Source of the DNA: Deroplatys truncata
Lineage: Eukaryota > Arthropoda > Insecta > Mantodea > Mantidae
Length of the DNA: 64,000 nucleotides
Assembly (NCBI GenBank): GCA_030765065.1
Contig: CM060975.1
Coordinates: 106,970,094 to 107,034,093, forward strand
Reading direction: 5' to 3'
Shown: positions 50,641 through 64,000 of the stretch, in pieces
Layout of the letters: the number at the start of each line of letters is the position of its first letter
Numbering within the stretch: position 1 is the stretch's first letter
Notes under the pieces: generated by a model
Told to the model about the DNA's origin: nothing
The model's database searches: none
What the model saw: only the letters and a program-made list of their open reading frames with translations
Made by a program: the position numbers and the translations under genes

Positions 50641-51400
50641 CAGGATATATTTGGGTGAAGGCAAATTAATAACATCAGTAGGGGAAATGGGCATTCTAAA
50701 ACAGTTAATTTATGCATGGCTATTCATATGCAAATGAGCTCCCCCACCTCCTCCCTCCCCCACCCCCTGCTACTTGGCATGGGCATTCTGAAACAGTTAG
50801 CCCCGCCCCCTCCCTCCCCCACCCCCACCCCCCGCTGTGCCTTGGTAGTTTTAGTTGCAGCTGCGGTCGTAAATCATGTTGAGTACAATGGAGGCTTGAC
50901 AGTTAGGTAATTAAAGCTGTCAATCAACTGTCAAAACGAACAAAGGGGTCATAAATTTAAGGTTCTGCAACAAAGGCGAGATGTTTTTCCTACCCATTCC
51001 ACACCCGGCCACTTCTGCACCTGGTCAGTTACCCACCCCCACTTCCATTGTGTGTCGAACACGTGGCATACTCGTTCCACTAGCTTTTAACAAAAGAACA
51101 ATGCTTAACCTTCAGCTGTCAAAATGAACAAAGCCCATGATGAATTAGGGTTGTAACAAAGCCTGACCCTTTCCATTGTGTAAGAGATTCTATTGTGTGT
51201 GCCTTTCTATTGTCCGATGCAAGCATTCTTTAGAAAGACACCTGCAGCGTTCCCATCCCAATAACAAAGCCTGACCCTTTCCATTGTGTAAGAGATTCTA
51301 TTGTCCTTGGCAAGGCTAGTTTAGAAAGACACCTGCAGCGTTCCCATTGTTTGGCCACCTGCTAGTTTAACAAAAGAATTCGAGGGTTGCTTTATACTCG
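50641..51400. repeat. C-rich and tandem duplicated block
   Basis: GGGCATTCTRAAACAGTTA occurs twice (about 50,690 and 50,780), each followed by CCTCCCTCCCCCACCCCC-type C-rich DNA. TGTCAAAACGAACAAAG recurs as TGTCAAAATGAACAAAG. A segment AACAAAGCCTGACCCTTTCC plus ATTGTGTAAGAGATTC is duplicated about 106 bases apart (51,156 and 51,262). No coding sequence is evident. Confidence 0.7.
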
Positions 51401-51609
51401 TCCTGTCCTTGTTTGTGTGAAAGAGAGAGAAACTTGTTTACCAACTCTGTGTGACGTCATTGTCGGCCATCATGATTTTGCCTGAGGGAGTTCTCTCCGA
51501 TGTTTTACGACCTCCTACGAATATACCCGAGCATAGTTAACAAGCATTCTGTTTCAGCCAACGACTCCGAAAAAAGCGTCTAATATACATTTCATTACGT
51601 GCATTAAAC

Positions 51610-52375
51610 CTCTGAGTGATATCCATAGATCGGTGTTCGATTCTTACTGTAATCAAAAGTTTATTGCTAATGAGAAATTAATGATTGATATTATTATATC
51701 ATTACCCTAATTAATAAAAAGGCGTTCAGAGAATTCTAGCTCGAGTCTTACCAAGTGAAACTCTAACGCGTAATAACTATTAAACTATGCAAGGTCAGAT
51801 TAAAAAAATGTATTTATCAATTATAATTTAATTTTTTATATATCATTACCCTAATTAATGAAAGGGTGTTCAGAGGGTTCTAGTTCGAATCTTACCCAAC
51901 GAAACTCTAATGCTTAATAAATATTAAACTATGCAAGGTCAGATTAAAATGCATTTAACAAATTTAATTTTTATATATCATTACAATAATTAATAAAAGG
52001 GTGTTCAGTGGGTTCTAGATCGAATCTCTAATGCTTAATAAATATTAAACTATGTGAGTATTGCGCGGCCAGATTAAAACGTGTTTAACGAATATAATTT
52101 AATTAATGAAACGGTGTTCAGGGGGATCCTAGATCGAATCTGCGAAACTCTAATGCTTAATAAATATTAAACTATGCACGACCAGATTAAAATGTGTTTA
52201 ACAAATATAATTTAATATACACGACATTACAATGTTTAACGATCTGTATTCTTAGGAACCAGAGGTCCATAGTTCGAATCCAACCCTGTGAAACGCTATA
52301 ATAACTATTAAGTTATTGAAGCAGCGGGCGGTCGGATTAAAATTGCATTTAACAACTATAATTATTTATATTAAA
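51610..52375. repeat. Tandem repeat, about six copies of a 110-145-bp unit
   Basis: Each unit has GGTGTTCAG-GGGTTCTAG, TTCGAATC, AACTCTAATGCTTAATAA, TATTAAACTATGCA and GGTCAGATTAAAA blocks. Copies start near 51,612, 51,726, 51,868, 52,001, 52,113 and 52,237, with lengths varying through small indels. The TTCGAATC core looks like a tRNA T-arm/B-box motif, but no cloverleaf or A box is evident. Confidence 0.8.
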
Positions 52376-52484
52376 CCCTGATGCATACTTAGATATCTCG
52401 ATGCCTAGACAACATTCTTTCTTCTTCTCCTCTCTTTTTCTTGCTATCTATCTCTTTCTTTCTCCACGACTTGTACACATTCAG

Positions 52485-52765
52485 GCGTTCACATATACAC
52501 GAGCGCTTGTACACACATCAGCAATCATACACAGGTGCACGCATGCAAGCACATACACACACACACACTCACATACATACAATAGTACACACACACACAC
52601 ACACATACACGCATTCACGCACCTCATGCGTATACATACATACACCAGTGCTCTTACACTCACACATACATATACATGGACAAACACACACACGTGCAAG
52701 CACATATGCCTGTTCACTTACACCCAGCAGCACCAACCAACACACGCACACACCAACTCACGCGC
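52485..52765. repeat. CA-rich interrupted microsatellite
   Basis: ACACAC runs are mixed with ATACAC, GCAC and TTCAC steps. Long frames across it (125 and 146 residues, His/Thr-rich) reflect the simple repeat and are not genes. Confidence 0.9.
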
Positions 52766-52883
52766 ATGTCCTGAATGAAAAGAGACAAAATGATGCAATA
52801 AAAACTAATTATAGCTCGGGATGCAAGGCTCCATTTACGATTGCTCGAAACCGGTCTTCTAATAACTCCAAAACTAATTAAAA

Positions 52884-53606
52884 TAAAGACAGTAAATAAA
52901 CTTTATTACTTTTATGCCATTAGCTCGTTTCTTGTGCATGTATATTAGAGTCCAGGTGTCATGGGTTCGATCCTTAACTTTAAAATCTCAATTATCTCAG
53001 AAACTAGCAGGGATTAAGGTGCGGACCAAAGCACGATTTTTAGTTTCTACGATGAACAATTAATGCTTTATATAATTTCCAATCAGTGTCCCTAGCTCGA
53101 AACCCGATCTTTCAGTGACTTCCTTAATTTTCCACTGTGTTCTAGAATATATCACTTAGATAAATGTTGCAACTGCATACAGGTCTTTTAAACACATCAA
53201 ACTAATATTATAAATAATTTTGTTTCTGGCGTTCTGAGTTCGAATACCGATTCAGTGAAGTTTACTTATAAATTTAATAACAGTAAATAATTAAGACAAA
53301 GGTACCAAATAAACCTATTACGTTTATGTCATCAGATAATATCTTGCGGTGTATATTAGGGTACCTGACGTCCAGGGTTCGATCCTTAAGTTTAAATCTC
53401 AATTATCGCAGAAACTAGCAGAGATAGAGCTGTAGACGAAAGCATGTTTGATAGCTCATACAATGAACAATTAATGCTGTATATAATTTTCAATCAGTTG
53501 CCCCTAGTTCGAACCCCGATCTTTCAATGACTTCACTGATTTTCCTCTGTACTCTGGAATGCATCGCTTAGATTGATGCTTTAACTGCATGCAGCTTTGT
53601 GTAACG
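52884..53606. repeat. Two tandem copies of a ~409-bp unit
   Basis: Copies start at about 52,884 and 53,293. Shared blocks include GGGTTCGATCCTTAA, CAGAAACTAGCAG, GAACAATTAATGCT, TCGAAMCCCGATCTTTCA and GCATRCAG. Each carries two or three B-box-like TTCGA motifs. The second copy stops before the GA-rich tract at 53.63 kb. Confidence 0.8.
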
Positions 53607-53626
53607 ACATTATGGATGTACTCTGT

Positions 53627-53955
53627 GTGAGAGAGAGCGAGAGAGGGAGAGAGAGAGAGGGAGAGGAAGTGAAACAAGCAGGGATAGAAGTGCTGAGGGC
53701 CTCTGCGCAAGCGTAGCAAGAGATGATGCCATTGGCTGCAATAATCACGTGACGTGTAAGCATCACAGCCATGATGACGTGCAGGCATCGCCTGGAGGGG
53801 GTTTAGATCCCTATATAAACAGACATCTGTCCCATGTTAGAACTGTTGTGTACTTATTAACTTTACATTCAAGTTTTAAAGAGCTTTAAAAGCAACGTGA
53901 GCTACAGGCCGTCTACACATTCAGCACATATCAAAACGGGGCAATGCAAGGTGAG
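53627..53955 (+). promoter_or_regulatory. Promoter-like region at the left edge of the virus-like element
   Basis: In order: a GA-rich tract at 53,627-53,672 (GAGAG runs, as bound by GAGA factor in insects), GCGCAAGCG at 53,705, an inverted CCAAT (ATTGG, 53,731-53,735), CACGTGACGTG at 53,746-53,756, TGACGT at 53,775-53,780 and TATATAAA at 53,812-53,819. About 130 bases after the TATA box is a consensus 5' splice site (CAAG/GTGAGT, junction at 53,950/53,951), suggesting a short leader exon. The only gene downstream on this strand is the 117-residue frame at 54.7 kb. The assignment to that gene is inferred. Confidence 0.55.
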
Positions 53956-54069
53956 TTTTAAATAACTATACAAAATCACTGTTGGCTTTTACAATACATT
54001 TAATTTTATTTAAACGTTACAGTACATGAAAGACGATTCGTTACAAAGAGCATCATATTTTCTAATCTG

Positions 54070-54640
54070 TGCTTTACATTCACATGGATTTCACTGCATA
54101 CTCTTCTTCAGTTCACATGATTTTCGCCACACATTCTTCTTACATAAACATTCATACGACTTTCCCCTCATTCTTTGTTTCCCTATACACTCACATGATT
54201 TCCTCTACTCATTCTTTATTCCACCTACAGGTTCATGCTCTGTTAACATTCACATGACTTTCTCTTCACATTCTTTGCTTCCATTAACATTCACATGATT
54301 TTCGCCACACATTCTTCTTACATAAACATTCATACGACTTTACCCTCATTCTTTGTTTCACTATACAGTCACATGATTTCCTCTACTCATTCTTTGTCCC
54401 CCTGCAGGTTCATGCTTTGTTAACATTCACACGACGTTCTCAGCTCATTTCTCTATTGACATTCACATGATCTTCTCAACACATTCTTCTTACTTAAACA
54501 TTCATACGATTTTCCCCCTCATTCTTTGTTTCACTATACATTCGCACACGATTTCCTCTACTCATTCTTTGGTTCTCTGCTGGCTCATCTTCAATGAACA
54601 TTCACATGATTTCTGTACTTATTCTTTATTTCTCTACACC
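54070..54640 (+). repeat. Iterated motif array, left arm
   Basis: About 13 copies of an ACATTCACATGAYTTTCTC-like motif are spaced roughly 35-58 bases apart, interleaved with TCATTCTTTGTTTC-type pyrimidine stretches. A larger period of about 175 bases (copies from 54,111, 54,290 and 54,461) is also visible. The best single copy, at 54,247, reads ACATTCACATGACTTTCTCT. The plus strand is pyrimidine-rich. Short Phe/His/Ser-rich frames across it are not genes. Confidence 0.8.
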
Positions 54641-54712
54641 CTCATAGGCTTACTTACAAAACATACACACCCTAGTTCTTCAACTTGAATAATGTAGTGA
54701 AAATAATAATTC

Positions 54713-55066
54713 ATGACAATGTCTGTTACAGATTGTTTAGCTGATAGACTTAACAAGATGGTGGAAGAGCGTAGTTTCCTACCGACTCGTCGAGTTCAAG
54801 ATCTCGAAATAGGTCTTAACTATGAGATAAAGTCCTTAAAGAGAGTTCAAACAAGATATGGTACCAGGATCGTATCTTCGCTGGAGGATTGTCAAGTGTT
54901 CTTGCCAGAGCGCTATAATTCGTTAACCGATCAAGAGATTGCAGAAATACCTGGGAGCGTATACCTACAGTATAATGGCATGGCAGAGAAGGGGAAATTT
55001 AAGACATGTAAATTGTCTTTTTTACATGCAAAGAAGGTGCGTAGAAGTGTCAAACTTAAGTATTGA
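54713..55066 (+). CDS. Small conserved-looking protein of the virus-like element, left-arm copy
   Basis: 117 residues from an ATG, with a second Met at residue 3. An N-terminal helical stretch (residues 7-33) is followed by a beta-rich domain with VQTRYGTRIV (45-54), VFLPERY (62-68), an LTDQEI turn (71-76) and a basic C-terminus KKVRRSVKLKY (107-117). I recall similar short proteins with a K-V-T-YG-R and VFLP-R pattern in invertebrate virus-like elements. Their function is unknown to me; a nucleic-acid-binding role would fit the fold pattern and basic tail, but this is inference. AATAAA follows at about 55,099. A promoter and donor-like splice site lie about 0.8 kb upstream. The copy in the right arm encodes the same protein. 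Confidence 0.6.
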   Translation: MTMSVTDCLADRLNKMVEERSFLPTRRVQDLEIGLNYEIKSLKRVQTRYGTRIVSSLEDCQVFLPERYNSLTDQEIAEIPGSVYLQYNGMAEKGKFKTCKLSFLHAKKVRRSVKLKY

Positions 55067-56449
55067 ATGTTCTCCCATTTCACAATGAAAAATTCATAAA
55101 TAAAACAACTGACTCATTGATATTACATATAAGGATACAAAAGATGCATATTATAGAATTTTATAAAAAATTAACGAAATTACAATATCACATGCTTGAG
55201 TTTAATTATATCTAGCGCATTGAAATAACTCTAAATATCCGAATGTTTATACAAATCTTTGTGCTTCTTTTTACATGTGCCATATGCTTCATTTTACATG
55301 TATCATAACAAAAAATGTAATTCTTTCCAGGTTGCCTTTACTTGACCAAGATAGTTTTCTAAGACTTTCATTTTGCAATGTTTCAGGGTGTGCAATAAGA
55401 GGAAGAAGAAGAAGAGGAATAGCCTGCTGGCATGCAAAGGATGCTGACGCTATGGGAGGGTAGAATACCTACAAGAAACATTTCGGCAACAAACGGGTGC
55501 TGAGACATCTACATCACCGAAACACATTAAGACAGGATCCTTATATAACATTACAGGGTATACAATGAAAAAATAGGGTCCATTTTGTATACAATTCAAT
55601 GCATGGCTGAGAGTTAGCTCGAACTAGTCTCCCTATATTCACTGAAATTAAGCATTGTGAGCAATAATTTAAGTGACTGTGAAAATACTTTAAGTAATGG
55701 TGAAATTTGTATCCTAAAAGACTTGAGCCCTGTATACATTAACAGCATTAAGGCTGTTTGCCACGCTGGAATACAAATTATGAAAATAAAAAGACTTTCA
55801 TTTAAATAATAAGGAAATTTGCATAACCTGCTGTTACAAGTGTAATGACATATACAGAAACAATGAGTCGGACGAGAAAGTGATGGAAATGTGAGATAAA
55901 TAATAACAATAAAAGAATTAAGGTATGCTTTTACATAGTGTTTTTATTCATTAAAAATCCTTGTATTCCTAATGAAAAATAAATCATTACAATGATTAGT
56001 TTAAGTTATATCACAATGATCAAAAAGAGAACCTTCTTTAGATGCATTACTCGATCTTAAGTCAGAGCACCAAAAAATGACAAATCACGGCTTCTCCATT
56101 TTAGATGTGGTGTCACTATTCAGGTAAATTCATGTAACACAACAGGTTGAGTATGCAGATCTGTGGTCCTAAATGGGTGAAACAGAGTATTATCCAGCTT
56201 AACAGTCTTGAGATCTCACCATCAGAAAGTCGAATCACAAGCCTTCTCCACTCGCTGAGCACAGGTTTAACAACAGCATTCTCTTCACCCTGAGACGATG
56301 TAAAGTATATAAATGTTCAACTTGACAAGGGATTCTAAACTGGTTGTTAGAGTCCAGAACTGATGTATTATATGGTGAACACACATGTTCCTCTTCTTAG
56401 CGATCTTGTCGTCGAATCTCGGTGTCGATAACATTGAAGATGCCCATGA
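55067..56449. other. Arm spacer without a firm gene
   Basis: It lies between two converging frames. A pyrimidine-rich acceptor-like site (TTTGCAATGTTTCAG) at about 55,371-55,385 precedes an Arg/Lys-codon-rich stretch (55,396-55,425), which could be a small 3' exon. The 62-residue frame at 55,275-55,463 across it is not convincing by itself. The same sequence is present inverted in the right arm. Confidence 0.4.
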
Positions 56450-56803
56450 TTATAGGATTCTGAAGCCCAAAAACTGTAGGAACTGCTGATTGCGTGATGT
56501 TAACCTGATGGGCGTCAAGGGCAGAGCATGATGTGTGCGTCGAATCATTCCATTATTATATCCTCGACGTCGTTGACTTCTTCTAAAAACTATAGGCATT
56601 ATGCTTATATCCTTGTTTCTAAAGGCAATGATATTGCTGTTAGGCTCCCCTGTTTGCTCTATGAAGCGGATGTTTATGAACAACAGGTAAAATTTGATTT
56701 GATGGTTCCTGTGAAATACGTTATCCAGCCGTAACAGATGGGAAAACTGGTAGATGGAATGTCCACTTTTACTATAGAGGAAGGAGACTGATGCAATACT
56801 GCG
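56450..56803 (-). CDS. Outward-reading exon-like frame of the virus-like element, left-arm copy
   Basis: An open frame of 117 codons, without an ATG near its start, is preceded by an acceptor-like AATTTAGCGCAG. This suggests a 3' exon, not a stand-alone gene. Readable parts are RLDNVFHRNHQIKFYLLFIN, IEQTGEPNSNIIAFRNKDIS, RRSQRRRGYNNGMIRRTHH and a C-terminal RLTSRNQQFLQFLGFRIL. The Arg-rich stretch and the L(T/S)-N--FL--LGF ending look conserved to me, and I associate the latter with virus-like elements, though I cannot name the protein. It lies downstream of the minor-capsid-like gene on the same strand and converges with the 117-residue gene from outside. Confidence 0.5.
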   Translation of the reverse strand, partial: RSIASVSFLYSKSGHSIYQFSHLLRLDNVFHRNHQIKFYLLFINIRFIEQTGEPNSNIIAFRNKDISIMPIVFRRSQRRRGYNNGMIRRTHHALPLTPIRLTSRNQQFLQFLGFRIL

Positions 56804-56978
56804 CTAAATTCGTATGATGCTCAACTTAAATATGTTCACTAGGAAATCAGATTCAGACAGCTGATTAGATGGAATAACTTTGTCACCGAAGGGTCGCAGA
56901 ACGTTCCTATAGAACAATCACTGGAAAAAATCAAGAGTGAAAGGTCATTTTAATGACATTTTTAATATTATTATTATT

Positions 56979-56984
56979 TTTATT
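56979..56984 (-). terminator. Poly(A) signal, left arm
   Basis: AATAAA on the minus strand, about 95 bases after the stop of the minor-capsid-like gene. The inverted copy in the right arm sits in the equivalent place after the zinc-finger gene. It lies in an (ATT)n stretch, so chance occurrence is possible. Confidence 0.4.
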
Positions 56985-57078
56985 ATTATTACTATTCACT
57001 GATCTAATAAAGAAGACATTCGCATCCTAATATGAGGAATCTTTAAACGTCGGGCGTACAAGTCCAGGTCTATGTTAC

Positions 57079-57585
57079 TCAATGTTTTTTCCGGGACAAG
57101 TATAGCCCCCTGCCAGAGTTTTTTGAATTCCCTTTCAGGCTCTGTCTCCTCTTCGTTTCTGTGTTTCTTCGCTTATTCTTCTTCACTCGAAAACCTCTCC
57201 CTCTTGCTTCAATTTCTCTGTTACGTCTCATCATTTCAGCAAGTTGTTTATCCGCAGCTTTTTTCGTATTTACAGCTGTAGCAATTTGTGATGCTCCTCC
57301 AGCGGCGGCTCCTAGTGCTGCAATAATTGGTATGAGCTGTAGAAATCCTCCTCGTTTCTTCTTTTTGGACCCTCCGCCAACAGATACCTTTCTCTCAATT
57401 TCTCTCTTATGCCTCATCATTTCGGCAAGTTGTTTATCTGCTGCCTTTTCCTTATTTACTGCTGAGGCAATTTGGGCTGCACCTCCAGCAGCAGCGCCTA
57501 GAGCTGCAATAATTGGTATGAGAGGTAGAAATCCTCCTCGTTTCTTCTTCATGGTTACTGCACCTGGAGCTACCTTTCCCTTCAT
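57079..57585 (-). CDS. Minor-capsid-like protein with internal duplication
   Basis: 168 residues from ATG. Two tandem units of 62 residues repeat the plan KKKRGGFL-LIPIIAALGAAA (13-33 and 75-95), then GGA-QIA-AVN and an ADKQLAEMMR-(H/R)-(K/N)REIE helix (50-64 and 112-126). The C-terminus is very basic and ends SGRGLYLSRKKH. A basic head, a Gly/Ala-rich amphipathic or membrane-active helix and a GLYL motif are what I recall from adenovirus pX/pVI-like minor capsid proteins of Polinton-type elements. A single unit is the usual form, so the duplication is unusual. A minus-strand TATA box lies at 57,926-57,932. The gene looks whole. Alternative: an unrelated membrane-active peptide precursor. Confidence 0.6.
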   Translation of the reverse strand: MKGKVAPGAVTMKKKRGGFLPLIPIIAALGAAAGGAAQIASAVNKEKAADKQLAEMMRHKREIERKVSVGGGSKKKKRGGFLQLIPIIAALGAAAGGASQIATAVNTKKAADKQLAEMMRRNREIEARGRGFRVKKNKRRNTETKRRQSLKGNSKNSGRGLYLSRKKH

Positions 57586-57925
57586 AATTGCTGTTACTAG
57601 TCACGCTGCCAACTTTTTCACCTAATGTAACATCAGATTGCACGCTTTACCAAGTCGTTTCAGTCAGATCTTGGCAGCAATGTTTCTCGAAGCAGAGACC
57701 TTATGCTGAGCGTTGGCAATGCCACTAAGATTACACGAATCGTCTAACGGAATGATTCCAGGGTCTCCTATCTTTAATTTTTCTCTAGCTTTACCACAGT
57801 TCCTCAGCCTATGTAACCAGGTAAATGTACTTCAATGGTTGCAGGCTAGTGAGAGAGTTAATTAAACCGAAACCTCTTGCGAGCTTAACCACGTTATACT
57901 AATCGATTTTTATTCAGGATAGTTC

Positions 57926-57932
57926 TTTTATA
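57926..57932 (-). promoter_or_regulatory. TATA box for the minor-capsid-like gene
   Basis: TATAAAA on the minus strand, within GTATAAAAG, about 340 bases upstream of the ATG at 57,585. It lies between the minisatellite and the gene. The long leader could contain an intron, which is not resolved here. Confidence 0.5.
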
Positions 57933-58117
57933 CTTTCTCATTAGCGTATATACATTAAGAGCGATTTATTTTACTTTAGCTGTCAAGCTAGAGAGGATGA
58001 AACAAGAATGCTCACAGCCTATTGATATGTTAGACTTTGAAAGCGACTTTAGATGTGAACTTAGTGGAAAACTGTTTCATGTCAACGTTATATACGTTCC
58101 CATCATGTAACCCATTC

Positions 58118-60440
58118 AGGGAAAAGGTGACCAGCAAAGGGAAAAAGGTGACTAGCAAAGGGAAAAAGGTGACCAGCAAAGGGAAAAAGGTGACCAGCAA
58201 AGGGAAAAAGGTGACCAGCAAAGGGAAAAAGGTGACCAGGAAAGGGAAAAAGGTGACCAGCAAAGGGAAAAAGGTGACCAGCAAAGGGAAAAAGGTGACC
58301 AGCAAAGGGAAAAAGGTGACCAGGAAAGGTAAAAAGGTGACCAGCAAAGGGAAAAAGGTGACCAGCAAAGGGAAAAAGGTGACCAGGAAAGGGAAAAAGG
58401 TGACCAGCAAAGGGAAAAAGGTGACCAGGAAAGGGAAAAAGGTGACCAGCAAAGGGAAAAAGGTGACCAGCAAAGGGAAAAAGGTGACCAGCAAAGGGAA
58501 AAAGGTGACCAGCAAAGGGAAAAAGGTGACCAGGAAAGGGAAAAAGGTGACCAGCAAAGGGAAAAAGGTGACCAGCAAAGGGAAAAAGGTGACCAGCAAA
58601 GGGAAAAAGGTGACCAGGAAAGGGAAAAAGGTGACCAGCAAAGGGAAAAAGGTGACCAGGAAAGGGAAAAAGGTGACCAGCAAAGGGAAAAAGGTGACCA
58701 GGAAAGGGAAAAAGGTGACCAGGAAAGGGAAAAAGGTGACCCGCAAAGGGAAAAAGGTGACCAGCAAAGGGAAAAAGGTGACCAGCAAAGGGAAAAAGGT
58801 GACCAGCAAAGGGAAAAACATGACCAGCAAAGGGAAAAAGGTGACCAGGAAAGGGAAAAAGGTGACCAGGAGAGGGAAAAAGGTGACCAGCAAAGGGAAA
58901 AAGGTGACCAGCAAAGGGAAAAAGGTGACCAGCAAAGGGAAAAAGGTGACCAGCAAAGGGAAAAACGTGACCAGCAAAGGGAAAAAGGTGACCAGCAAAG
59001 GGAAAAACGTGACCAGCAAAGGGAAAAAGGTGACCAGCAAAGGGAAAAAGGTGACCAGCAAAGGGAAAAAGGTGACCAGAAAGGGAAAAAGGTGACCAGG
59101 AAAGGGAAAAATGTGATCAGCAAAGGGAAAAAGGTGACCAGCAAAGGGAAAAAGGTGACCAGCAATGGGAAAAACGTGACCAGCAAAGGGAAAAATGTGA
59201 CCAGCAAAGGGAAAAATGCGACCTACAAAGGGAAAAAGGTGACCAGGAAAGGGAAAAAGGTGACCAGGAAAGGGAAAAAGGTGACCAGCAAAGGGAAAAA
59301 GGTGACCAGAAAAGGGAAAAAGGTGACCAGCAAAGGGAAAAAGGTGACCAGGAAAGGGAAAAAGGTGACCAGCAAAGGCAAAAAGGTGACCAGGAAAGGG
59401 AAAAAGGTGACCAGCAAAGGGAAAAAGGTGACCAGGAAAGGGAAAAAGGTGACCAGCAAAGGGAAAAAGGTGACCAGCAAAGGGAAAAAGGTGACCAGAA
59501 AAGGGAAAAAGGTGACCAGGAAAGGGAAAAAGGTGACCAGGAAAGGGAAAAAGGTGACCAGGAAAGGGTAAAAGGTGACCAGCAAAGGGAAAAAGGTGAC
59601 CAGCAAAGGGAAAAAGGTGACCAGGAGAGGGAAAACGGTGACCAGCAAAGGGAAAAAGGTGACCAGGAAAGGGAAAAAGGTGACCAGCAAAGGGAAAAAG
59701 GTGACCAGGAAAGGGAAAAAGGTGACCAGCAAAGGGAAAAAGGTGACCAGCAAAGGGAAAAAGGTGACCAGGAAAGGGAAAAAGGTGACCAGCAAAGGGA
59801 AAAAGGTGACCAGCAAAGGGAAAAAGGTGACCATCAAAGGGAAAAAGGTGACCAGCAAAGGGAAAAAGGTGACCAGGAAAGGGAAAAAGGTGACCAGCAA
59901 AGGGAAAAAGGTGACCAGCAAAGGGAAAAAGGTGACCAGCAAAGGGAAAAAACGTGACCAGCAAAGGGAAAAACGTGACCAGCAAAGGGAAAAAGGTGAC
60001 CAGCAAAGGGAAAAAGGTGACCAGCAAAGGGAAAAAGGTGACCAGCAAAGGGAAAAAGGTGACCAGCAAAGGGAAAAATGTGATCAGCAAAGGGAAAAAG
60101 GTGACCAGGAAAGGGAAAAAGGTGACCAGCAATGGGAAAAACGTGACCAGTAAAGGGAAAAATGTGACCAGCAAAGGGAAAAATGCGACCTGCAAAGGGA
60201 AAAAGTGACCTGCAAAGGGAAAAAATGTTACCAGCAAAGGGAAAAATGTGACCAGCAAAGGGAAAAATGTGACCAGCAAAGGGAAAAAGGTGATCAGTAA
60301 AGGGAAAAATGGGACCAGAAGAGGGAAAAACGTGACCTGCAAAGGGAAAAAGGTGACCAGCAAAGGGGAAAATGTGACCAGCAAAGGGAAAAAGGTGGCC
60401 AGCAAAGGGAAAAAAAGGTGACCTGCAAAGGGAAAATGAC
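58118..60440. repeat. Minisatellite, about 110 copies of a 21-bp unit
   Basis: The unit is GGTGACCAGCAAAGGG followed by A5 on the plus strand. The main variants are CAGC/CAGG at the first AG and GGTGACC/ACGTGACC/ATGTGACC/ATGCGACC at the start. Because 21 is a multiple of three and only one of six frames has a stop in the unit, long frames run across it: 817 codons on the minus strand with FFPLLVT or FPFAGHL units, and plus-strand frames with VTSKGKK or DQQREKG units. Unit-length changes that are not multiples of three occur, and phase is not preserved, so I regard these frames as non-coding. Units are more variable toward the right end. Confidence 0.9.
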
Positions 60441-60755
60441 CAGTATCTCCCTCAACTCTCGCATTCTCTGTGCTAACTATCAAGAAAACTTGTACTCTTA
60501 CCTCTATGAATTCATTTCTAGCTACTTGAATCTGCTTGTGCTTAATGAGATAGTTATAATTAACGAAATTACAACTATTATGTGCGAATGCTACAATATT
60601 TTGCTTAGTCTAATTCGGCATGGGTGTTTATATGCATCAAAACCTGAGTACATATATAAATACATAAATGTTAAAAAATAGCTCAGTCTCGTGTTATCGT
60701 ATACGAATTCAACATCTACAGTATACATTGACTAGTTTATATATACTGCTTGAGC

Positions 60756-61328
60756 ATGAATACTCACAAAGACGGTCAATTACAGTCAATTTACGAGAAT
60801 CTTGATTTTTCGTATGTTTCCCAAGGGGGGAGTAATCGCTTTGATAAGTGCTGCATATGTAATAGAACTTTAAAGAACAGGACAATTTCAAGGCTTAAAC
60901 AACATAGGAGAAGATGCTGTAAAGCAATGACCAGCTGTGCATTGACTACAACACCCAAACGAGATCCTGAAATCTTCACAAGTCCCGAAGAGCGGGATTC
61001 AAGATGTACCGTACTTGGAACCAGTTCAAGCGACCCTGTAATAACGTCAAGAGCTACCACTGATGAAGCAATGACAGCAGTTTCTTTGAATGAGCAAGCT
61101 CTGAATAAACACACCAATGAAAGCAAGCATACTAGTGTCAAATCACCTAGATTAGAAGATATATCCAAAGCGAATACAGAGGAGATGCTATGCCGCTACA
61201 CCGATCCTAATGATTTGGTACACATGCTAAGGGTACTCAGGATGCTTCATACACCAGATAAAAATGACTTTTCCGATGCGATTAACGACATTATTCAGGA
61301 TTTAAAGCTGGGTGGTTTTATAGCGTGA
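60756..61328 (+). CDS. C2HC zinc-finger protein of the virus-like element
   Basis: 190 residues from the first ATG at 60,756. The frame is open slightly further upstream, and CTACAG at about 60,716-60,721 could be a splice acceptor. Residues 32-55 form CCICNRTLKNRT then SRLKQHRRRCC: a C-x2-C pair (32, 35), His50 and Cys54 or Cys55, with a basic helix between, as in single BED-like or C2HC DNA-binding fingers. Residues 60-130 are Ser/Thr-rich and probably unstructured. Residues 131-190 are acidic and helical (DPNDLVHMLRVLRML, then DINDII-like DLKLGG end) and could be a partner-binding region. A likely role is DNA-binding regulation of the element, inferred from the finger alone. AATAAA follows at 61,419. 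The gene looks whole and is not duplicated. Confidence 0.6.
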   Translation: MNTHKDGQLQSIYENLDFSYVSQGGSNRFDKCCICNRTLKNRTISRLKQHRRRCCKAMTSCALTTTPKRDPEIFTSPEERDSRCTVLGTSSSDPVITSRATTDEAMTAVSLNEQALNKHTNESKHTSVKSPRLEDISKANTEEMLCRYTDPNDLVHMLRVLRMLHTPDKNDFSDAINDIIQDLKLGGFIA

Positions 61329-61418
61329 TTAGCATTTGCAAAACCATGAAAGAGTTTAAAAGATTCCTCATATTAGGATGCGAATGTCTTGTTTATTAGA
61401 TCAGTGAATAATAATAAT

Positions 61419-61424
61419 AATAAA
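61419..61424 (+). terminator. Poly(A) signal, right arm
   Basis: AATAAA about 90 bases after the zinc-finger gene stop. It is the inverted counterpart of the signal at 56,979-56,984. Confidence 0.4.
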
Positions 61425-61581
61425 AATGTCATTAAAATGTCCTTTCACTCTTGATTTTTTCCAGTGATTGTTCTATAGGAACGTTCTGCGACCCTTCAGT
61501 GACAAAGTTATTCCATCTAATCAGCTCTCTGAATCTGATTTCCTAGTGAATATATTTAAGTTGAGCATCATACGAATTTAG

Positions 61582-61935
61582 CGCAGTATTGCATCAGTCT
61601 CCTTCCTCTATAGTAAAAGTGGACACTCCATCTACCAGTTTTCCCATCTGTTACGGCTGGATAACGTATTTCACAGGAACCATCAAATCAAATTTTACCT
61701 GTTGTTCATAAACATCCGCTTCATAGAGCAAACAGGGGAGCCTAACAGCAATATCATTGCCTTTAGAAACAAGGATATAAGCATAATGCCTATAGTTTTT
61801 AGAAGAAGTCAACGACGTCGAGGATATAATAATGGAATGATTCGACGCACACATCATGCTCTGCCCTTGACGCCCATCAGGTTAACATCACGCAATCAGC
61901 AGTTCCTACAGTTTTTGGGCTTCAGAATCCTATAA
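61582..61935 (+). CDS. Outward-reading exon-like frame of the virus-like element, right-arm copy
   Basis: Inverted copy of the frame at 56,450-56,803, with the same readable content (RLDNVFHRNHQ start region, Arg-rich middle, RLTSRNQQFLQFLGFRIL end). Here it lies downstream of the zinc-finger gene on the same strand, so the same 3' module follows two different upstream genes. No ATG is near the start, and an acceptor-like site precedes it. Function unknown. Confidence 0.5.
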   Translation, partial: RSIASVSFLYSKSGHSIYQFSHLLRLDNVFHRNHQIKFYLLFINIRFIEQTGEPNSNIIAFRNKDISIMPIVFRRSQRRRGYNNGMIRRTHHALPLTPIRLTSRNQQFLQFLGFRIL

Positions 61936-63318
61936 TCATGGGCATCTTCAATGTTATCGACACCGAGATTCGACGACAAGATCGCTAAGAAGAGGAACAT
62001 GTGTGTTCACCATATAATACATCAGTTCTGGACTCTAACAACCAGTTTAGAATCCCTTGTCAAGTTGAACATTTATATACTTTACATCGTCTCAGGGTGA
62101 AGAGAATGCTGTTGTTAAACCTGTGCTCAGCGAGTGGAGAAGGCTTGTGATTCGACTTTCTGATGGTGAGATCTCAAGACTGTTAAGCTGGATAATACTC
62201 TGTTTCACCCATTTAGGACCACAGATCTGCATACTCAACCTGTTGTGTTACATGAATTTACCTGAATAGTGACACCACATCTAAAATGGAGAAGCCGTGA
62301 TTTGTCATTTTTTGGTGCTCTGACTTAAGATCGAGTAATGCATCTAAAGAAGGTTCTCTTTTTGATCACTGTGATATAACTTAAACTAATCATTGTAATG
62401 ATTTATTTTTCATTAGGAATACAAGGATTTTTAATGAATAAAAACACTATGTAAAAGCATACCTTAATTCTTTTATTGTTATTATTTATCTCACATTTCC
62501 ATCACTTTCTCGTCCGACTCATTGTTTCTGTATATGTCATTACACTTGTAACAGCAGGTTATGCAAATCTCCTTATTATTTAAATGAAAGTCTTTTTATT
62601 TTCATAATTTGTATTCCAGCGTGGCAAACAGCCTTAATGCTGTTAATGTATACAGGGCTCAAGTCTTTTAGGATACAAATTTCACCATTACTTAAAGTAT
62701 TTTCACAGTCACTTAAGTTATTGCTCACAATGCTTAATTTCAGTGAATATAGGGAGACTAGTTCGAGCTAACTCTCAGCCATGCATTGAATTGTATACAA
62801 AATGGACCCTATTTTTTCATTGTATACCCTGTAATGTTATATAAGGATCCTGTCTTAATGTGTTTCGGTGATGTAGATGTCACAGCACCCGTTTCTTGCC
62901 GAAATGTTTCTTGTAGGTATTCTACCCTCCCATAGCGTCAGCATCCTTTGCATGCCAGCAGGCTATTCCTCTTCTTCTTCTTCCTCTTATTGCACACCCT
63001 GAAACATTGCACAATGAAAGTCTTAGAAAACTATCTTGGTCAAGTAAAGGCAACCTGGAAAGAATTACATTTTTTGTTATGATACATGTAAAATGAAGCA
63101 TATGGCACATGTAAAAAGAAGCACAAAGATTTGTATAAACATTCGGATATTTAGAGTTATTTCAATGCGCTAGATATAATTAAACTCAAGCATGTGATAT
63201 TGTAATTTCGTTAATTTTTTATAAAATTCTATAATATGCATCTTTTGTATCCTTATATGTAATATCAATGAGTCAGTTGTTTTATTTATGAATTTTTCAT
63301 TGTGAAATGGGAGAACAT
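61936..63318. other. Arm spacer, right copy
   Basis: Inverted copy of 55,067-56,449, with a few single differences. It holds the same acceptor-like site and Arg/Lys-codon stretch, now on the minus strand, and no firm gene. Confidence 0.4.
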
Positions 63319-63672
63319 TCAATACTTAAGTTTGACACTTCTACGCACCTTCTTTGCATGTAAAAAAGACAATTTACATGTCTTAAATTTCCCCTTCTCT
63401 GCCATGCCATTATACTGTAGGTATACGCTCCCAGGTATTTCTGCAATCTCTTGATCGGTTAACGAATTATAGCGCTCTGGCAAGAACACTTGACAATCCT
63501 CCAGCGAAGATACGATCCTGGTACCATATCTTGTTTGAACTCTCTTTAAGGACTTTATCTCATAGTTAAGACCTATTTCGAGATCTTGAACTCGACGAGT
63601 CGGTAGGAAACTACGCTCTTCCACCATCTTGTTAAGTCTATCAGCTAAACAATCTGTAACAGACATTGTCAT
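63319..63672 (-). CDS. Small conserved-looking protein of the virus-like element, right-arm copy
   Basis: 117 residues, identical to the product of 54,713-55,066, including the VQTRYGTRIV and VFLPERY segments. It reads inward from the arm's outer end and converges with the exon-like frame at 61,582-61,935. Its promoter would lie beyond the window, mirrored from the one at 53.6-53.95 kb. Function unknown; see the left copy. Confidence 0.6.
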   Translation of the reverse strand: MTMSVTDCLADRLNKMVEERSFLPTRRVQDLEIGLNYEIKSLKRVQTRYGTRIVSSLEDCQVFLPERYNSLTDQEIAEIPGSVYLQYNGMAEKGKFKTCKLSFLHAKKVRRSVKLKY

Positions 63673-63734
63673 GAATTATTATTTTCACTACATTATTCAA
63701 GTTGAAGAACTAGGGTGTGTATGTTTTGTAAGTA

Positions 63735-64000
63735 AGCCTATGAGGGTGTAGAGAAATAAAGAATAAGTACAGAAATCATGTGAATGTTCATTGAAGATGA
63801 GCCAGCAGAGAACCAAAGAATGAGTAGAGGAAATCGTGTGCGAATGTATAGTGAAACAAAGAATGAGGGGGAAAATCGTATGAATGTTTAAGTAAGAAGA
63901 ATGTGTTGAGAAGATCATGTGAATGTCAATAGAGAAATGAGCTGAGAACGTCGTGTGAATGTTAACAAAGCATGAACCTGCAGGGGGACAAAGAATGAGT
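63735..64000 (-). repeat. Iterated motif array, right arm (incomplete)
   Basis: Reverse complement of the left array: CATGTGAATGTTCATTG, CGTATGAATGTTTAAG, GATCATGTGAATGTC and similar, spaced as on the left. It continues past the window end. Confidence 0.75.

Follow-up and report, generated by a model that had tools for sequence, protein, structure and literature searches.

Among described mobile elements, the Polintons or Mavericks (polintoviruses, adintoviruses) stand closest to the element presented here, which has their AGTAG.. ends, terminal inverted repeats (TIRs), 6-bp target-site duplications and pX-like gene, keeps remains of capsid and ATPase genes, and shares its genome with a full relative. 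It departs from them in that neither a polymerase or integrase gene nor an intact capsid gene is visible, and in that its TIRs bear genes and are 6.4-6.6 kb long, whereas those of the autonomous copy examined measure 2.27 kb. Repbase includes non-autonomous Polinton entries. Among the literature matches listed, titles and abstract openings presented no study of palindromic Polinton derivatives or of derivatives with gene-bearing TIRs. Polinton-like viruses (PLVs) are likewise reported to have TIRs of hundreds to thousands of base pairs and short duplications (PMC12220804, PMC4642659), and one survey accepted TIRs from 100 bp to 8 kb (PMC12220804). As described, these surveys start by design from elements with a capsid gene, whereas the present element keeps capsid relics only.

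Non-autonomous DNA transposons of the MITE-like, internally deleted kind resemble the element in having kept the ends, lost the enzymes and seemingly become commoner than the autonomous family; they are short, whereas this element is large, gene-bearing and palindromic. Virophages and other satellite systems offer a parallel in their parasitism on a larger element, which is a proposal in the present case, but here the helper would be a co-resident Polinton rather than a giant virus, and the element has no capsid of its own. Snap-back defective viral genomes consist of an inverted self-copy with an unpaired loop, short or long, and depend on a helper; fold-back defective genomes are usually regarded as short-lived by-products of virus replication. 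The element studied here likewise pairs an inverted copy of itself with a loop present once, and it is collinear with the parental type, but it is a DNA element fixed in about 900 germline copies and carries a gene that was not seen in any helper copy examined. In our view it is probably a non-autonomous, satellite-like Polinton that arose by snap-back of an autonomous ancestor and is mobilised in trans.

Limits and architecture of the element

The window is the whole stretch analysed, 64,000 nucleotides of contig CM060975.1 of the insect Deroplatys truncata (positions 106,970,094 to 107,034,093). The element spans 17,266 bp from 50677 to 67942, beyond the window end, with the 6-bp duplication AACATC on both sides (Table 1). 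On the left, host AACATC gives way at 50677 to the element's first letters, AGTAGGGG; the outer end sought to the right of position 64,000 lies at C1:107038035, which is window coordinate 67942, with AACATC directly beyond it. A single G distinguishes the two terminal sequences, while the host flanks of the two arms are unlike each other.

A preliminary description had proposed a giant inverted repeat with genes in both arms, the same iterated motifs in each and a unique centre of 4.3 kb, and this architecture stands. The core of the repeat, 54385-56978 against 61407-64000, is 2,594 nt of 100% complementarity, with 83 nt more at 90% further inward; the 117-aa and 49-codon frames occur twice, once on each side of the 4,308-bp centre. 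The nearly identical arms of at least 2.65 kb were correctly judged as to likeness (99.65% between left and right over the 3,183 bp of outer arm compared) but their true length is 6.37 and 6.59 kb, and the left edge, once placed at 53627, moves out to 50677. As for such arms being unusual, they are genuine and recurrent, but long TIRs are not exceptional as such in the survey range reported for PLVs (PMC12220804). The Polinton-type assignment agrees with the shared ends, the 6-bp duplications and the Adeno_PX-like gene, and the suggestion of a derived form with the fuller relative that this genome also contains. As had been noted, replication and integration genes are missing from view: apart from frames in the 21-bp array, no PolB-sized or integrase-sized ORF occurs in 50800-61500, Pfam matched no integrase in the three main ORFs, and the capsid and packaging ATPase genes survive only as shortened relics.

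Table 1. Features of the palindromic element and their positions in the window
Feature	Position	Strand	Remarks
Left target-site duplication AACATC	50671..50676	.	Partner outside window, directly after C1:107038035; from both edge sequences
Left arm, giant terminal inverted repeat, 6,371 bp	50677..57047	+	
Outer TIR segment common with autonomous Polinton C10:81923464-81945559	50799..52563	+	
Tandem repeat, ~144 bp, outer arm	51695..52104	.	
Iterated motif block, CATTCACATGA.. units	54112..54627	.	Motifs iterated in both arms
117-aa gene, family unassigned, left copy	54713..55066	+	
Capsid-side gene remains, broken and shortened	55281..56954	-	Mirrored in right arm
Arginine-rich ORF, 49 codons	56450..56599	-	Mirrored at 61786-61935
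Unique centre (loop), 4,308 bp	57048..61355	.	
pX / mu-like core-protein frame, two tandem units	57079..57600	-	Adeno_PX 29.7 bits, cut-off 25
Packaging ATPase gene start, relic	57815..58053	+	75.6% identical at the DNA level; truncated by the array
21-bp tandem array, 110 copies	58118..60436	+	
192-aa ORF, N-terminal part Cys/His-rich	60750..61328	+	
Right arm, in-window part	61356..64000	-	Runs on to 67942 (C1:107038035), total 6,587 bp
117-aa gene, right-arm copy	63319..63672	-	

A young family with matched arms

The genome contains 1,823 occurrences of a 47-mer taken from the arm gene and 0 of its reversed control, which gives roughly 900 elements provided that all arm genes are paired. 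The 90 zero-mismatch arm-gene matches listed on C1 form 37 convergent pairs, with 16 unpaired and no other close arrangement. Ten further elements were sampled with both arms, which speaks against chance and against a local fold of the assembly. The 6-bp duplication was exact by script in 8 of the 11 element pairs. In the other three, the window element is exact, L018/L019 is flanked by CATATG left and right, and L028/L029 has one mismatch in six bases, the last two pairs being judged by eye.

Sister arms of the 11 elements are 0 to 1.09% apart, with three pairs identical in the 731-bp segment compared, and the difference is 0.32% (0.0032) between sister arms against 1.39% (0.0139) between arms of different elements. 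The partner arm is the closest or joint closest for 20 of the 22 arms; the exception is L018/L019, one element in 11, whose arms are nearer those of other elements than each other. The window element is a member of a young family whose arms are homogenised within elements. A copy of 7.2 kb on C11 has both outer ends yet a single 117-aa gene (4 kb read), so that doubled arms are perhaps unneeded for mobility, or the copy was cut after insertion.

An autonomous Polinton in the same genome

A full Polinton, located through a pair of outer-arm matches with an unusual span, lies at C10:81923464-81945559. Its ends are very similar to those of the window element, it is flanked by the 6-bp duplication GTGGTA, and it encodes a DJR capsid (E 3.8e-110), an rve integrase (3.4e-10) and an A32 ATPase (8.3e-7). 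Its PolB was assigned by a YMDTDS motif and weak similarity to PolB ORFs (best E 1.3e-4, 20.5% identity); Pfam DNA_pol_B_2 left this presumed PolB unmatched at E 0.1, and a PDB sequence search with part of it returned nothing useful. A 47-mer of the autonomous capsid occurs 614 times. The arm probe, of which an element carries two, reaches 1,823, and the derivative thus seems to outnumber the autonomous family. A pX 41-mer (838 occurrences) also fits the autonomous copy, with 2 mismatches in L058, and was left unused as a count of the derivative.

The outer TIR is 97.6% identical to that of the C10 Polinton in block 50799-51460 and 93.7% in block 51296-51912, with the remaining blocks lower. 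Read from the capsid end of that Polinton, the two elements are collinear over seven DNA blocks and over the C-terminal part of the 192-aa ORF; past this stretch, the window element carries its arm again, inverted. The capsid-side remains form collinear blocks of 79-85% DNA identity, the arginine-rich ORF has 78% amino-acid identity to the ORF in the same place, and the C-terminal 53 aa of the 192-aa ORF show 38% identity to the ORF that precedes the integrase gene in the autonomous copy. A block resembling the iterated arm motifs sits on the PolB side in two autonomous copies. The inner blocks, taken together, are only 76-85% identical to the present-day autonomous family, which is thus not the direct parent, and we infer an ancestor instead. 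Another PolB-bearing copy, at C3:71.46 Mb (L052/L053), was rejected as a partner: only one 32-bp match to the window element was found, and no TIR was seen between its two 9-kb pieces. With no common sequence beyond those 32 bp, it belongs to a separate Polinton lineage.

A second palindrome

At C10:165153671-165168796 lies a separate palindrome made of the capsid half of the autonomous element. Comparison of 4.57 kb of its arms gave 99.67% identity, and the 330 bp left unpaired lie inside the ATPase gene. The ends read AGTAGTAGGG, the target-site duplication is GATACT, and the flanks have no match to each other. The junction is asymmetric, within one gene, and has a 2-bp overlap, with one pair of ends and one duplication. 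Since this palindrome has a 6-bp duplication of its own, fold-back forms do arise and integrate, although it is the only palindrome noticed in the autonomous family, which counts against the snap-back reading.

Origin and mode of life

Protein-primed copying of an autonomous ancestor could be the setting of the fold-back. The growing strand would have copied one TIR, the capsid genes, the start of the ATPase gene and the integrase-adjacent ORF before switching to its own product and copying back to the end, so that an inverted capsid-side arm took the place of the integrase, the polymerase and the other terminus. A product of this kind has two full, correct ends, and so polymerase and integrase from an autonomous relative could replicate this product and integrate it, leaving 6-bp duplications. 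Mobilisation in trans, and with it dependence on the relative, is suggested by the ends, the duplications and the copy number; the product may also be packaged, and its genes may have roles in this cycle. Since each arm can template the other, the arms would be equalised at every round and drift apart only after insertion, although chromosomal gene conversion could also account for their likeness. Later changes would have been decay of the arm capsid genes, duplication of the pX unit, growth of the 21-bp array and gain of the 117-aa gene.

Large inverted repeats are a familiar class of assembly error, and a single true arm with a mis-joined mirror copy would also yield a palindrome. Such an artefact is extremely improbable given that sister arms differ by up to 1.09% (three pairs of 11 are identical in the 731-bp segment), that the host sequence differs at the two arms yet the 6-bp duplications match, and that 37 convergent pairs occur on C1. 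As far as the assembly shows, many other copies share the architecture and sister arms are slightly different, so that a palindromic assembly error does not fit, nor does a host duplication standing alone. A Foldback or Galileo-type transposon with captured virus genes is scarcely credible either. Its long, internally repetitive TIRs with tandem blocks, as Galileo is described (PMC3573991), do recall the arms, but such elements have a P-class transposase, while the ends, 6-bp duplications and outer TIR here match a Polinton of the same genome with an rve integrase, at up to 97.6%.

Alternatively, two ordinary Polinton fragments could have inserted in head-to-head orientation, or nested copies could have undergone gene conversion, the result being fixed as a unit and then amplified with no fold-back during replication. 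Nested and adjacent insertions happen in repeat-rich genomes, and the arm resembles both sides of the autonomous element, with the iterated block known from near PolB as well as capsid relics; we nevertheless regard this course as unlikely. The window element is collinear through its loop, and the second palindrome, with its one pair of ends, single duplication and asymmetric in-gene junction overlapping by 2 bp, fits a switch during copying, unlike two insertions. It is very doubtful that the element is a small self-sufficient virus whose replication genes, the 117-aa and 192-aa frames, escape recognition. The 117-aa frame is widely kept open and its product matches no known family, but there is no ORF of polymerase or integrase size outside the array frames and the ends match those of the autonomous family. 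The snap-back origin retains an explanatory gap of its own: the 117-aa gene was not found in the autonomous copies examined, and fold-back leaves its presence unexplained.

Beyond the snap-back origin, it is conceivable, if somewhat doubtful, that what began as a defective Polinton genome is now a lasting germline parasite that recaptures the ends of its helper and outnumbers it. Recapture of current helper ends is suggested by the 97.6% identity of the outer block against 76-85% for the inner blocks. A tentative part of the same proposal is the 117-aa gene, carried in two doses and not found in the helper copies examined. If this satellite reading is true, the family is an animal-genome counterpart of virophage and satellite systems, with the type of its founding event visible elsewhere in the genome. 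A fold-back form appears to have been turned into a large heritable DNA family, and the second palindrome still displays a junction within a gene of the autonomous element. Together they may provide a genomic record of Polinton copying, with a start at one end, strand switching and mutual correction of arms, a mode otherwise mostly deduced from gene content.

Genes of the element and selection

Of 26 copies (20 picked by neighbouring DNA, 6 fetched earlier), 25 keep the 117-aa frame open, as do the 150 listed by protein score. The protein has no match in Pfam, PHROGs or PDB sequences, and its AlphaFold2 model, made without an alignment, is poor (mean pLDDT 50.8); an OB-like fold was no more than a first impression, and we do not propose it. 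IMG/VR was also scanned with three proteins (117-aa, pX and capsid), and no relative was confirmed. The gene was not found in the five pieces of the C10 autonomous copy or in the PolB-side stretch of the second copy. Its dN/dS of 0.47 is not significant (P 0.18; 25 copies, being the 6 earlier ones and those left after L077, with a 1-base deletion, was dropped). Should the gene be under selection, the element would exemplify a satellite that acquires a function of its own within an animal germline, whether in opposition to its helper or in concert with it.

Selection on the element's own genes appears only partly supported by such counts. For pX, dN/dS against the autonomous unit is 0.12 and 0.26, and within the family 13 synonymous and 12 nonsynonymous changes give ~0.29 from 15 loci, a sample biased to few changes in which 12 of the 15 were chosen by protein score and the window and C16:77.78 Mb elements contribute two loci each. 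The arginine-rich ORF has a dN/dS of 0.53 between families and 9 synonymous against 18 nonsynonymous changes within the family, in a sample that includes several loci of one element. The 192-aa ORF is open in two of four loci, the window copy among them, and broken in the other two. Units of the 21-bp array are present at all 12 pX loci checked, one of which is the window copy.

Extent of the Element and Its Family

In the 4.29 Gb genome of Deroplatys truncata, the inverted repeat put forward in the preliminary description holds: its halves pair over 2,594 nt (100% complementary) and, further in, over 83 nt (90%), with a centre of 4,308 bp between them. An insect host agrees with 37 genomic matches above the cut-off to the odorant-receptor family PF02949, which is specific to insects and was hit in 0 of 14 control genomes. 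The left limit then proposed has to be moved, since arm homology, judged against the sequence right of the window and ten other elements, extends outward to approximately window position 50,680. The flank right of the window, suggested as the place to look for the outer end and a target-site duplication (TSD), supplied both: the left edge reads AACATC then AGTAGGGG, and the right edge reads CCCCCTACT then AACATC. The features discussed below are collected in the table. Two tandem blocks in the outer arm are seemingly variable among arms.

A 47-mer of the arm gene gave 911 and 912 genomic matches at three or fewer mismatches, while its reversed control gave 0. Ninety of the 100 matches listed lie on C1, all with zero mismatches; pairing them at distances of up to 15 kb gives 37 convergent pairs and leaves 16 with no zero-mismatch partner, and no non-convergent close pair occurs among the 90. 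The arm search advised earlier has therefore recovered other copies of the same architecture. Gene-to-gene spacing within the pairs ranges from 2.5 to 11.3 kb and is 7-9 kb in 25 of the 37. Eleven elements had their ends examined; an exact 6-bp duplication was recorded by script in eight, while the window element is also exact and two others, assessed by eye, are exact (L018/L019) or carry one mismatch (L028/L029). The window element is a member of a mobile family. Five of the 37 pairs are spaced only 2.5-3.8 kb apart, so their centres are probably largely lost. On C11 lies a short copy whose two outer ends are separated by about 7.2 kb; the part read contains one 117-aa gene, with the centre and one inner arm apparently missing.

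Coordinates of the window element, its relatives and other features
Feature	Location	Details
Window	C1:106970094-107034093
Window element	C1:107020770-107038035	17,266 bp; arms 6,371 and 6,587 bp
Outer-arm block shared with autonomous TIR	window 50799-51460	97.6% identical
Partly overlapping block	window 51296-51912	93.7% identical
Outer-arm tandem block	near window 51154-51460	matched more than once by other arms
Outer-arm tandem block	window 51695-52104	~144 bp units
Seven inner blocks, inward	window 55281-55467, 55837-56004, 56004-56303, 56300-56954, 57026-57390, 57388-57807, 57815-58053	76-85% identity to autonomous relative
pX unit, doubled in tandem within one frame	window 57209-57549	period 186 bp
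21-bp array	window 58118-60436	110 units
Closely spaced arm-gene pairs (examples)	C1:69089573/69092356, 127411950/127414722, 138441664/138444159
Short copy	C11:52548049-52555248	4 kb read (L055, 52549500-52553500)
Autonomous relative	C10:81923464-81945559	TSD GTGGTA; TIRs 2.27 kb, 98.6% alike
Insertion in its left part (L056-L057)	about C10:81925950-81928140	ORFs resembling reverse transcriptase (by eye)
Second autonomous copy, stretch (L080)	C1:192043900-192047600
Capsid-half palindrome (L082-L084)	C10:165153671-165168796	15,126 bp
Different Polinton lineage (L052-L053)	C3:71456000-71474000

A Fuller Relative in the Same Genome

A search with the outer arm returned a pair of matches 21.6 kb apart on C10 and thereby an autonomous relative. 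Its ORFs match Pfam models for a DJR capsid (E 3.8e-110), an rve integrase (3.4e-10) and a poxvirus A32-type ATPase (8.3e-7), and more weakly an adenovirus protease, below the cut-off (0.032). A 1,217-aa ORF has no polymerase match in Pfam; it contains a YMDTDS motif and is weakly similar to other PolB ORFs of the genome (best E 1.3e-4, 20.5% identity), and with caution it may be read as PolB. A 47-mer of the family's capsid gene has 614 genomic matches (reversed control 0). In a separate search that scored 103 capsid matches, the best ones only, 93 have no stop.

The seven inner blocks follow the same order as the autonomous element read from its capsid end to its middle. The order is continued by the C-terminus of the 192-aa ORF, which is 38% identical over 53 aa to an ORF beside the autonomous integrase; beyond it comes the inverted arm instead of integrase and polymerase. 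The window element lacks an equivalent for much of the major-capsid, minor-capsid and protease genes, so what it retains of them is relic sequence. The earlier guess of a derived Polinton-type form is borne out by the shared ends, the 6-bp duplications, the Adeno_PX-like gene and this fuller relative. Judged by its sequence, the window element has a snap-back genome plan, in which an inverted self-copy would arise when a growing strand switches onto its own product.

Probable Origin and Propagation of the Inverted Arms

A separate palindrome on C10 was built from the capsid half of the autonomous family. Two capsid genes lie there back to back, and the surrounding 9.5 kb is an inverted repeat, with 3,701 nt at 100% and 888 nt at 99%, the inner arms being separated by 330 nt. 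Compared with the capsid half of the autonomous copy, its arms show 98.5-99.5% identity; the palindrome turns back within the ATPase gene, with a 2 bp overlap. Both outer ends are AGTAGTAGGG, and GATACT is present in both flanks, which are otherwise unmatched to each other; the palindrome is integrated as one unit. Since its arms are 99.67% identical over the part compared, it is no perfect assembly mirror. Visual inspection of the 103 capsid matches scored, and of the sites listed from the 614 of the capsid 47-mer, showed no other such pair.

The likeness of sister arms was sampled over a 731-bp segment in 22 arms of 11 elements. Sister arms diverge by a mean of 0.0032 (range 0 to 0.0109), as against 0.0139 across elements (range 0.0027 to 0.0288 in 220 pairs). 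For 20 of the 22 arms no other arm is closer than the sister, both exceptions being the arms of one element (L018/L019). Because sister arms are closer than arms across elements, either one arm is copied from the other in each round or both are equalised then; drift would follow after insertion. The same likeness may also reflect gene conversion after insertion.

A fold-back event would yield a molecule with two proper ends. Protein-primed copying initiates at either end in this polymerase class, and so a two-ended element could be replicated by the helper polymerase and inserted by the helper integrase. The likeness of the outer ends to the helper is recent while the interior is older, which suggests that the ends are renewed from the helper or kept by selection for compatibility. 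Packaging of the derivative in helper capsids is possible, if hypothetical, because the pX gene has been kept.

Two reports describe short duplications in PLVs whose TIRs range from hundreds to thousands of bp (PMC12220804; PMC4642659), and in both respects the window element is like them. Literature searches, whose coverage lay largely outside subscription journals, listed no study of palindromic, gene-bearing Polinton derivatives. Within that coverage, PLVs with long TIRs are known and a palindromic, gene-bearing derivative is apparently new.

Genes of the Derivative

The pX of the window element exceeds the Pfam cut-off for Adeno_PX. Its two units, whose doubling is marked by the overlap of two window blocks, have dN/dS values of 0.12 and 0.26 against the single autonomous unit, and among the 150 best matches 135 are free of stops; the pX frame of the C10 autonomous copy contains a stop. 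Selection on the derivative's pX is likely from these ratios, though part of any signal measured against the autonomous copy may stem from the autonomous side.

Selection on the two arm frames is possible. The 117-aa frame, present twice in the window element, is stop-free in the best 150 matches, chosen by protein score, and 118 of these are 100% identical; among 20 copies picked by neighbouring DNA, one has a 1-base deletion. Pooling the 19 remaining with six earlier ones (25 copies) gave 11 synonymous and 19 non-synonymous changes, a dN/dS of ~0.47 that is suggestive only (P 0.18). Neither the C10 autonomous copy, read in five pieces, nor L080, a PolB-side stretch of a second copy, yielded the gene, and its protein matched no known family in Pfam, PHROGs or PDB sequences. 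The 49-codon R-rich ORF has a dN/dS of 0.53 against the autonomous copy, while the other two frames give 1.4 and 1.9. It is intact in 20 of 20 equal-length loci, some of the same element (L047 omitted for length), and within the family it shows 9 synonymous and 18 non-synonymous changes. Of four loci seen for the 192-aa ORF, two have an open frame, the window copy among them. Several frames are open on both strands of the 21-bp array, and as its units occur in 12 of 12 pX loci checked (one being the window), the array looks like a family feature.

Other Polintons in the Genome

Further PolB lineages are present, with 152 matches from 76 scored candidates. The C3 Polinton encodes a long, open PolB along with other ORFs and shares no sequence of note with the window element. 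In the second autonomous copy, two small ORFs upstream of PolB share a PPPPGFED-type motif.
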